From assembly GCF_900143515.1 (NCBI RefSeq), contig NZ_FSQT01000002.1, positions 2,977,501 through 3,041,500 of the forward strand: a stretch of 64,000 bases of DNA, read 5' to 3'. The notes under the pieces were generated by a model. It was given only the letters and a program-made list of their open reading frames with translations. It was not told where the DNA came from and searched no databases. How positions within the stretch are numbered: position 1 is the first letter of the stretch; each line of letters starts with the position of its first letter. Positions 53,944 through 55,700 of the stretch are shown one piece after another. The position numbers were made by a program, and so were the translations under genes. This stretch comes from Micromonospora cremea. Lineage in GTDB: Bacteria; Actinomycetota; Actinomycetes; Mycobacteriales; Micromonosporaceae.

Positions 53944-54459
53944 TTACCCGGCCAGGGGGCGGGTGTAGCGGAGTTGTGGGGTGAGGGCGGCGCCGATGTG
54001 CTCCTCGCCTTCGGCACCCGTGGGGGTCCAGCCGCCGCGCTGGTAGAAGGCGCGGGCGTGGGCGTTGTCGCGGAGCACCCAGAGCACCGCTCGCCGCCAG
54101 CCCCGCGCCCGCATGGCGTCCAGCGCGTCCACCATCAGCAGGCGGCCGATGCCCCGTCCCTGCTCGGCCGGGTCCAGGTGGATGGCGTTGAGCAGCCCGG
54201 TCGCGGGGTCGTCCTCGTCGTCCGGGCCCAGGTGGCTGAACCCGACCAGCGTCCCGGCGCGCTCCGCCACGGTCAGCCGGTGGGTGTCCCGCTCCCAGAT
54301 CCACCGTTCGGTCCAGTACCGGCCCATCGCTTCCGGCGTCGGGTCGGCCAGCGCCTCGGCCGGCAGGAAGGAGGAGTATGCGGCGACCCGGGAGCGCTGG
54401 TGCAGGGCACCCACCCCCATCAGGTCGTCACCGGTGGCGGGGCGGAGCGTGACGGTCAC
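53944..54459 (-). CDS. GNAT-family N-acetyltransferase
   Basis: 171 residues. Acetyl-CoA motif [20 protein letters not shown] (about 107-126) and the C-terminal FYQRGGWTP hairpin identify a single GNAT domain. Substrate unknown. The GTG start (54457-54459) overlaps the RNase Z stop by four bases, so it is translated from the RNase Z message. Confidence 0.9.
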
Positions 54460-55385
54460 CCGGCCGAGGTTACCCGGCGTGGTGGGAGCTGCACGATGGT
54501 CAGGTCCTCGGCGATGATCAGGTCGCCGTCGAAGTGCGCGCGCGCCTCGTCGTGGAACCGGAGCGGGTCGGAATACCGCTGGGAGAAGTGGGTGAGCACC
54601 AGCCGGCGCACCCCGGATTCGGTTGCCACCCGGGCGGCCTGCGCCGCGGTCAGGTGGCCGACCTCGGCGGCGAGCGCCGCCTCCGACTCCAGGAAGGTCG
54701 ACTCGATGACCAGCAGGTCGGCGTGCTCGGCCAGGGCGTAGACGCCGTCGCAGAGGCCGGTGTCCATCACGAAGGCGAACCGTTGCCCCGGCCGGGGCAC
54801 GCTCACCTCGTCCCGGGTGACGCGGCGTCCGTCCAGGTCCAGGTGCCCCACCCGGATCAGCTCGCCGACGGCCGGCCCGGCGATGCCGTACTCGGCCAGC
54901 TTCTCCGGCAGCATCCGGTAGCCGTCCGGCTCGACCAGCCGGTAGCCGTACGTCTCGATGGGGTGCCGCAGCCGGCGCGCCTCCAGCGTGCCGCAGCCCA
55001 GGGTGATCCGCTGCCCGTCGGTCTCGATCGGCTCGACCCGCAGTTCGGCGGTCTCGTAGAAGGAGGTGGCGTGCCGCAGCCGGGCGAAGTATTCGGCGCC
55101 GCCGGCCGGGAAGTGCACGGCGACCGAATGCGTCACCCGGTCCAGCGAGAGCCGCTGGATGGTGCCGGGCAGACCCAGGCAGTGGTCGCCGTGGAAGTGG
55201 GTGACGCAGATCCGGGTCAGGTCGGTGGCGGTGACCGTGGTGTGCAGAAGTTGCCGCTGGCTGCCCTCGCCCGGGTCGAAGAGGATCACCTCGTCGTCCC
55301 AGCGCAGCACGTACCCGTTGTGGTTGCGCCGCCGGGTCGGTGCCTGGCTGGCCGTTCCGAGCACCACCAGCTCGCGCATCGACAC
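54456..55385 (-). CDS. rnz: Ribonuclease Z
   Basis: 309 residues. Metallo-beta-lactamase fold with the zinc motif [13 protein letters not shown], an MDTGLCDGV segment and [11 protein letters not shown]. It trims the 3' ends of tRNA precursors that lack encoded CCA. I chose GTG 55383-55385, six bases after GGAGGAG, over the ATG two codons later. The gene follows a long structured leader with its own promoter and is coupled to the GNAT gene downstream. Confidence 0.93.
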
Positions 55386-55437
55386 GGTGCTCTCCTCCGG
55401 CTGACCTGACCGGCCCGGCCCCTGCCGGCAGATGAAG

Positions 55438-55502
55438 CGACCCCCGGGGTGTTCCGCGCTTTCGCGCGGGCCGGCTGGACTGGGCCGGCACCCCGGGGGT
55501 CG
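55438..55502 (-). ncRNA. Candidate structured leader element: three-way junction with GNRA tetraloop
   Basis: On the minus strand a perfect 14-bp helix CGACCCCCGGGGTG (55502-55489) with 55451-55438 encloses a hairpin CCGGC-CCAGTCCA-GCCGG and a hairpin CCGCGC-GAAA-GCGCGG. The tetraloop is GAAA only on this strand, which favours an RNA in the rnz direction. It abuts the helix formed by 55616-55607 and 55512-55503. It is not a known riboswitch class that I recognise. Confidence 0.6.
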
Positions 55503-55616
55503 GGTGGCTGTCGTGGATTCGCCGCACCGCTGCCACACGGTCTCGACGTTTGGTACTGGTGCCCGCCTCGCGGCGGACCGATCACTGTCGAGGACAGCGG
55601 CTAGCGGACAGCCACC
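55503..55616 (-). promoter_or_regulatory. Long-range leader helix overlapping the end of the small ORF
   Basis: GGTGGCTGTC (55616-55607) pairs perfectly with GACAGCCACC (55512-55503). The first strand is codons 15-18 of the small ORF, so a ribosome near its stop would open the helix. Inside lie CCGCTG/CAGCGG and a CCGCC-GCGA-GGCGG hairpin with a GNRA loop. Confidence 0.55.
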
Positions 55617-55660
55617 TCACGAGTCCGATTGCTATACAAGTCTGGACCACCTCCCTTCAC
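55601..55660 (-). CDS. Candidate 19-residue leader ORF upstream of rnz
   Basis: GTG at 55660-55658 starts a peptide reading [19 protein letters not shown], ending in TAG at 55603-55601. The -10 TAGCGT is ten bases upstream, so the message would begin about four bases before the GTG. An internal GGGAGG followed eight bases later by TTG (55639) could also start a shorter peptide ([12 protein letters not shown]). Codon use is unlike the neighbouring genes (TTG, TAT, CGT, GCT). Conservation of the peptide must decide if it is real. Confidence 0.4.
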
Positions 55661-55670
55661 GTGTACCGCC

Positions 55671-55700
55671 ACGCTATCGAGTCCCGGCCGGGCTCTGCAA
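55671..55700 (-). promoter_or_regulatory. Promoter of the rnz leader
   Basis: On the minus strand TTGCAG (55700-55695) and TAGCGT (55676-55671) are 18 bases apart. It lies directly after the msrA terminator hairpin. Confidence 0.6.

Follow-up and report, generated by a model that had tools for sequence, protein, structure and literature searches.

A small RNA gene of the Ms_IGR-5 family beside rnz in Micromonospora, with a conserved micro-ORF and a covarying long-range fold

The minus strand between msrA and rnz in a 64,000-nucleotide stretch of the Micromonospora cremea genome (contig NZ_FSQT01000002.1; referred to here as the window) carries a predicted promoter, a short open reading frame (ORF) and an elaborate RNA fold that ends just ahead of the ribonuclease Z gene. 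This raises the question of whether the element is a leader of rnz, as a preliminary description had proposed, or a gene in its own right. An Rfam scan of the window returned two matches over the cut-off, a tRNA and RF02471 (Ms_IGR-5). The latter covers the model at full length (positions 1-184) with a score of 94.6 bits against a cut-off of 45, and the claim that this is an undescribed RNA class therefore falls. The locus is the sole match in the genome, both to RF02471 and to R1, our 75-position model of the 5' domain. Rfam types Ms_IGR-5 as an sRNA and restricts its title to Actinobacteria. In the Rfam structure the Shine-Dalgarno (positions 14-19) is paired to positions 55-60, and there are middle and 3' hairpins; unlike the anatomy found here, it has no P1, long-range P3, pseudoknot or ORF. 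Rather than an RNase Z switch, the element is most likely an independent gene for a small RNA, from a family that is known but unexplained. What is new here is the anatomy of Ms_IGR-5; the family itself has already been described. The features of the locus are as follows.

55695..55700, minus strand: -35 element TTGCAG, read from the sequence
55671..55676, minus strand: -10 element TAGCGT, read from the sequence, with an 18-base spacer to the -35
55432..55664, minus strand: small RNA gene, Rfam RF02471 Ms_IGR-5 (gathering cut-off 45 bits)
55660..55663, minus strand: 5' strand of P1, CACG, partner 55618-55621 (three P1 pairs with many two-sided changes)
55644..55658, minus strand: Shine-Dalgarno GAAGGGAGGTGGTCC, 15 nt, complement of the 16S 3' tail with two G-U pairs
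55601..55639, minus strand: micro-ORF of 12 codons, TTG at 55639 to TAG at 55601 (stop position kept in relatives)
55622..55626, minus strand: strand X, GGACT, which forms the pseudoknot with the loop of the 3' hairpin (permutation test and exchanges)
55618..55621, minus strand: 3' strand of P1, CGTG (same covariation data as the 5' strand)
55613..55618, minus strand: second Shine-Dalgarno-like motif GAGGTG, within the ORF, 9 nt ahead of the stop
55607..55616, minus strand: 5' strand of P3, GGTGGCTGTC (strand-swap helix score)
55503..55512, minus strand: 3' strand of P3, GACAGCCACC (strand-swap helix score)
55595..55600, minus strand: predicted 5' strand of P4, CCGCTG, predicted partner 55527-55532 (sequence and single-sequence folds)
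55527..55532, minus strand: predicted 3' strand of P4, CAGCGG (sequence and single-sequence folds)
55515..55520, minus strand: box GAATCC just ahead of the 3' strand of P3, unpaired in the model
55438..55502, minus strand: P5, three-way junction, taken as the terminator (sequence and fold)
55477..55481, minus strand: AGTCC, the segment of the P5a loop that pairs with X (permutation test and sequence)
54456..55385, minus strand: rnz (ribonuclease Z), neighbour outside the RNA (NCBIfam NF000805, 529.8 bits)

What the preliminary description had read from the sequence of this region was borne out: the promoter pair with its spacer, the perfect 10-bp helix 55616-55607/55512-55503, the three-way junction, the upstream msrA (PF01625) and the assignment of rnz, whose GTG lies at 55385, 52 bases past the junction. 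P5 consists of a 14-bp closing helix (55502-55489/55451-55438), P5a with its 8-base loop and P5b with a GAAA loop. The transcript start is predicted at about 55664, the position at which the Rfam match begins. An upstream TANNNT was found in 188 of 267 related loci, compared with 18% in shuffled sequence; a loose TTG-containing -35 match was found in 193 of 267, a count with no shuffled control behind it. A GAAUCC-like box precedes the P3 3' strand in 233 of the 267 loci, again by a loose pattern with no control.

The name IGR-5 reportedly comes from a 2013 study of M. smegmatis. Other reports place the M. smegmatis transcript ncMSMEG15794c over the earlier IGR-5 (PMC10454040), assign an sRNA transcription unit of S. 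avermitilis to Ms_IGR-5 (PMC8780764) and give it RNA-seq support in S. lividans (PMC8079986). By analogy with S. avermitilis and M. smegmatis, the RNA may be an independent transcript in Micromonospora. In a further report, MS_IGR-5 carries ribosome footprints in both M. abscessus and M. smegmatis, and the authors caution that footprints on noncoding RNAs may derive from other particles (PMC4974804). Our literature search, which covered few subscription papers, turned up neither a functional study of Ms_IGR-5 nor any mention of an ORF or pseudoknot in it.

The loci compared here came from several searches. A set of 139 comprises 30 loci found with Rfam and 109 of the 118 found with a search pattern (among the matches listed, in named genomes); the pattern contained both Shine-Dalgarno motifs but not the stop codon. 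Nine pattern loci (L043, L050, L073, L087, L099, L102, L104, L123 and L129) were dropped by eye as chance matches. This choice preceded the count of stop codons but drew in part on how that very region looked; to treat the dropped loci, none of the nine having the stop, as controls is circular, and 18 viral matches to the pattern are the cleaner control. The wider set holds 267 loci, 251 of them distinct in sequence; one locus too near a contig end was left out (227 of 228 kept). For the search of the window's own genome, R1 was trained on 92 sequences, including the window. Sequence conservation in these sets is partly ascertainment, in that the first set was selected by pattern and R1 was trained mainly on that set.

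The gene neighborhood was examined with a home-made ORF scorer, which found no downstream gene in 7 of the 139 loci. In the other 132, the nearest downstream gene lies on the strand of the RNA in 65, as expected without a cis link. Only three of the 139 loci have rnz among the three nearest genes on either side: the window (L001), L010 from the same genus and L146 from Micromonospora trifolii. Within the window's family, the Micromonosporaceae, rnz adjoins the RNA in 14 of 31 loci, the window included; the remaining 17 have no rnz within about 1.5 kb, and none of the loci examined outside the family has rnz beside the RNA. A conserved same-strand position upstream of rnz was not found. In the window no T-run follows the last hairpin, so read-through is possible; a clear, terminator-like T-run follows it in six of eight non-actinobacterial loci inspected. 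A cis-acting, translation-coupled leader of rnz, as originally proposed, would fit the missing T-run, the same-strand rnz start 52 bases downstream and the 14 family loci with rnz at hand, but the 17 family loci without rnz nearby and the 65 of 132 same-strand count speak against it, and we consider this explanation very unlikely.

The 16S tail, GGATCACCTCCTTTC, occurs exactly at two places in the genome, both of them 16S ends, and the Shine-Dalgarno of the window pairs with it at 15 of 15 positions, two of them G-U. All 15 positions can pair, wobble counted, in 231 of 251 distinct loci, and all 15 pair in 135 of 153 distinct loci found with the covariance model. With up to two mismatches allowed, the genome contains 14 matches to the tail or to its complement, among them the two 16S ends and the site in the window. 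Pairing with the whole tail suggests that 30S subunits can load even on weak starts such as TTG, CTG or ATC. Five loci (L022, L107, L111, L119 and L126) combine a very strong site with a weak start, the sole starts behind their 15-nt Shine-Dalgarno being CTG, ATC or ACG.

The preliminary description had begun the ORF at GTG 55660. That 19-codon GTG...TAG frame exists at 55660-55601, but the position of its start codon, taken at a fixed distance before GGAGGTG without gaps, holds ATG, GTG or TTG in just 7 of 251 distinct loci. The conserved frame is instead the 12-codon TTG ORF at 55639-55601. An ORF running from a start behind the Shine-Dalgarno to a stop 14 to 15 nt after the beginning of GAGGTG is present in 249 of 251 distinct loci; the other two, L243 and L245, have the stop at 17. 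The start, 4 to 13 nt behind GGAGGTG and in a frame open to the conserved stop, is ATG, GTG or TTG in 223 of the 251 and a near-cognate codon at the same place in 26. The stop lies exactly five codons past GAG in all 139 kept loci (TAG in 102, TGA in 24 and TAA in 13; the pattern-found part of both counts is among the matches listed). Without the choice by eye, it does so in 30 of 30 loci found with Rfam and in 109 of 118 pattern-found loci among the matches listed, and in 0 of the 18 viral matches.

The second motif, GAGGTG, was present in 152 of 153 distinct covariance-model loci, as located with a pattern that itself demands AGGTG. Its two codons, GAG and GTG, show no synonymous change in 150 of 150 covariance-model loci that use this frame, and in 7 of 159 loci the same nucleotides are read in another frame. 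We take this invariance, together with the seven frame-changed loci, to mean that selection acts less on the peptide than on the RNA and the process of translating it, and from these comparisons it is probably the RNA that is constrained. In L229, L231, L234, L237, L238, L241 and L244 the stop lies 14 nt after the motif and the frame reads GGA GGT (GTA GGT in L244); these shifted-frame relatives encode another peptide from the same nucleotides, with the stop position nearly kept. The frame ends in EV(A/T)xx in most actinobacterial loci. In other phyla, a stop at +15 and a frame ending EV(A/T)xx were found in 40 of 41 loci, at least 5 of these 40 having been seen in earlier sets; the remaining locus, L302, was left out because it failed the AGGTG-requiring pattern by which the second motif was located. 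Three loci (L318, L323 and L327) have no ATG, GTG or TTG start in that frame. The N-terminal half and the length of the ORF vary, and the third residue of the C-terminal motif is neither A nor T in some loci.

P1, P3 and a pseudoknot covary, although relatedness of the loci inflates the covariation and permutation tests used. For P1 and P2 together, 74 cells were changed on both sides, compared with 25.6 (SD, 4.1) after shuffling, and the covariation score was 0.294 against 0.126; none of 500 shuffles was as high in either measure. The number of P1 and P2 pairs with any two-sided change, five, was not above that of the shuffles (mean, 5.4), and pairs 8-61, 9-60 and 11-59 of P1 hold most of the changes. 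The P3 helix score, computed on 116 sequences less than 80% identical, was 22.2; it fell to 18.85 (SD, 0.24; 12 permutations) when 5' strands were swapped between these sequences and to 18.1 with shuffled targets. P3 beat its own shuffles in 123 of 139 loci (the pattern-found part among the matches listed) and appeared in 68 of 116 single-sequence energy folds, that of the window included.

The pseudoknot, which the preliminary description had missed, joins GGACU (55626-55622) to AGUCC (55481-55477) in the 8-base loop. The mean longest complement was 5.31, compared with 4.71 for swapped regions (SD, 0.066; maximum of 300, 4.91), 4.44 for shuffled regions and 3.84 for a neighboring 10-nt stretch, a modest excess in length. 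The loop stretch contains GUCC in 87 of 107 loci with GGAC (the other 20 are without it) and AUCC in 9 of 11 loci with GGAU. Of the 23 non-GGAC loci, 13 had a match, while 1,000 shuffles gave 5.2 on average and never more than 13. The exchanges include GGAU/AUCC, AGACC/GGUCU, GUGACC/GGUCAC and GCGCGACC/GGUCGCGC. No clear partner was found at the tested place in the deep relatives L040, L066, L088, L100, L103 and L117. Since the same anatomy recurs in relatives and P1, P3 and the pseudoknot covary, the structured leader first noticed in the window is more than a chance arrangement. Of the translation-coupled switch that it was taken to be, the structured RNA, the overlapping ORF and the P3 strand inside that ORF stand, and are conserved far beyond the family; with that strand inside the ORF, the position of a ribosome should decide whether P3 forms, and the switching itself we infer.

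At an E value of 0.001 or less, 57 of 296 genomes from the window's phylum contained an RF02471 match, which exceeded the cut-off in 26, and R1 matched 118 of the 296 (90 loci collected; the weakest matches partly inspected). R1 matched 106 of 121 genomes in the window's family. None of the seven sampled genomes of one genus of the family (g208) matches R1; this is possibly a clean loss of the RNA, which could be compared for phenotype. In other phyla, named here by the title of the locus that led to them, R1 matched 15 of 18 genomes (L100, Nitrospinae), 21 of 60 (L103, Zixibacteria), 4 of 80 (L144, Spirochaetia) and 1 of 99 (L080, Deltaproteobacteria), this one being the starting genome itself. 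The single match in 150 genomes of the phylum of L123 (titled Alphaproteobacteria) was judged false. L066, L088, L103, L117 and others come from metagenome-assembled genomes, and mis-binning may explain single cases but hardly 15 of 18 or 21 of 60. The Zixibacteria locus L103 also scored 55.9 bits against RF02471, over the cut-off despite the Actinobacteria title. RNAs of the Ms_IGR-5 type thus appear to occur outside Actinomycetota, in several phyla.

A further family may be related. The consensus of CC2171 (RF01867), a Caulobacter sRNA, opens with the same GAAAGGAGGUGAUCC, followed by a GUG frame; it differs in its longer ORF and is a separate Rfam family. The window is absent from the RF01867 matches at E values up to 1, and L243, L245, L040 and L100 match weakly, at 20.6 to 28.1 bits against a cut-off of 75, 28.1 being the best for any locus of the Ms_IGR-5 type; we treat the relationship as a lead and not as membership. 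The alphaproteobacterial locus L286 scored 69 bits against RF01867, below the cut-off, and its ORF, in the stretch 1500-1700 of the plus strand, ends GAG GTT xxx xxx xxx stop, with GAG five codons before the stop. R1 scored L286 at 12.8 bits, no better than antisense 16S (13.3). This one subthreshold member and the Rfam consensus suggest that the long Shine-Dalgarno and a micro-ORF are features of CC2171 as well. CC2171, too, may be translated rather than noncoding.

What might such an RNA do? The reading that we favor, while holding it at somewhat less than an even chance, is that Ms_IGR-5 is a stand-alone RNA whose fold is opened by each translating ribosome and which acts in trans as a reporter of translation. 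A small RNA gene with its own promoter and terminator would give a transcript whose 5' Shine-Dalgarno pairs with the whole 16S tail. The ribosome would then read about 12 codons, to a stop codon 9 nt behind the second Shine-Dalgarno-like motif, and on its way would have to disrupt P1, P3 and the pseudoknot with the 3' loop. With its usual footprint, a ribosome halted at the stop should cover both the second motif and the 5' strand of P3, so all three pairings should be undone in every round of translation. In the untranslated, closed state P1, P3 and the pseudoknot would be formed; in the open state, with a ribosome at the stop, the GAAUCC box, the CAGUCACC-type strand and the GUCC loop would be freed. 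Such a translation-dependent state could itself be the signal, by which the RNA would report translation in trans. Since one partner of the pseudoknot is the last hairpin's loop, the pseudoknot should form only after almost all of the RNA has been made. Classic attenuation of a downstream gene is less likely for this reason, and we infer a role in trans. The gene, the ORF, the pairings and the distribution find support in the sequence comparisons; translation in Micromonospora, the two states and the action in trans are the conjectural parts of this reading. In a broader form, to which we give a distinctly lower probability, Ms_IGR-5 and CC2171 would be two branches of an ancient bacterial RNA gated by ribosomes: pairing with the full 16S tail would load a ribosome, the second Shine-Dalgarno would park it at a stop codon whose position is fixed, and the state of the pseudoknotted fold opened in this way would be sensed in trans to gauge translation initiation or termination.

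Parts of the same anatomy could be explained otherwise. Complementarity to the 16S tail at all 15 positions, as in those 231 of 251 distinct loci, would suit a 30S or 70S sink, in which ribosomes are retained by the 15-nt duplex together with the second Shine-Dalgarno and occupancy is itself the function, as storage or titration. A sink has no need of a covarying P3 and pseudoknot, however, and would require a very high copy number of the RNA; we regard it as improbable. In a more conventional proposal, translation merely shields the RNA from nucleases or exposes it to them and base pairing of the GUCC loop or the CAGUCACC strand with mRNAs is the function, as in a classic sRNA. Rfam's typing of the family and the frequency of GUCC in the loop (87 of 107 GGAC loci) are in keeping with this, but the loop is accounted for by the pseudoknot within the RNA, and we place the probability of this proposal lower than that of the sink. 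Lower again is the probability that the RNA is an mRNA whose functional product is a micro-peptide with the ending EV(A/T)xx. The recurrence of this C terminus, found in most actinobacterial loci as well as the 40 usable ones from other phyla, would be expected of such a peptide; a variable N-terminal half and length, a third residue outside A and T in some loci, E and V without synonymous codons in 150 loci and the 7 of 159 loci read in another frame would not.

A family filed as an actinobacterial sRNA thus appears to be built around a translated micro-ORF with a long-range covarying fold and to extend over several phyla. The ribosome footprints reported for M. abscessus and M. smegmatis point the same way (PMC4974804). 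Centered on a micro-ORF, this anatomy makes the function of Ms_IGR-5 directly testable, and it suggests the same check for other "noncoding" families with a long 16S complement, CC2171 among them. Ms_IGR-5 has the look of a long-standing connection of an RNA with translation.

Two kinds of known system invite comparison with this putatively ribosome-opened RNA. In translation-coupled leaders and attenuators, for example the trp and whiB7 leaders, the position of a ribosome on a short ORF decides the fold of the RNA, and the same would hold here; unlike those leaders, Ms_IGR-5 has no fixed downstream gene, and the loop of its last hairpin takes part in the pairing. Dual-function sRNAs are RNAs of regulatory size that also bear a small ORF, and Ms_IGR-5 resembles them in both respects. 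It differs from them in the overlap between its ORF and the structural strands, and its peptide seems not to be what is conserved.
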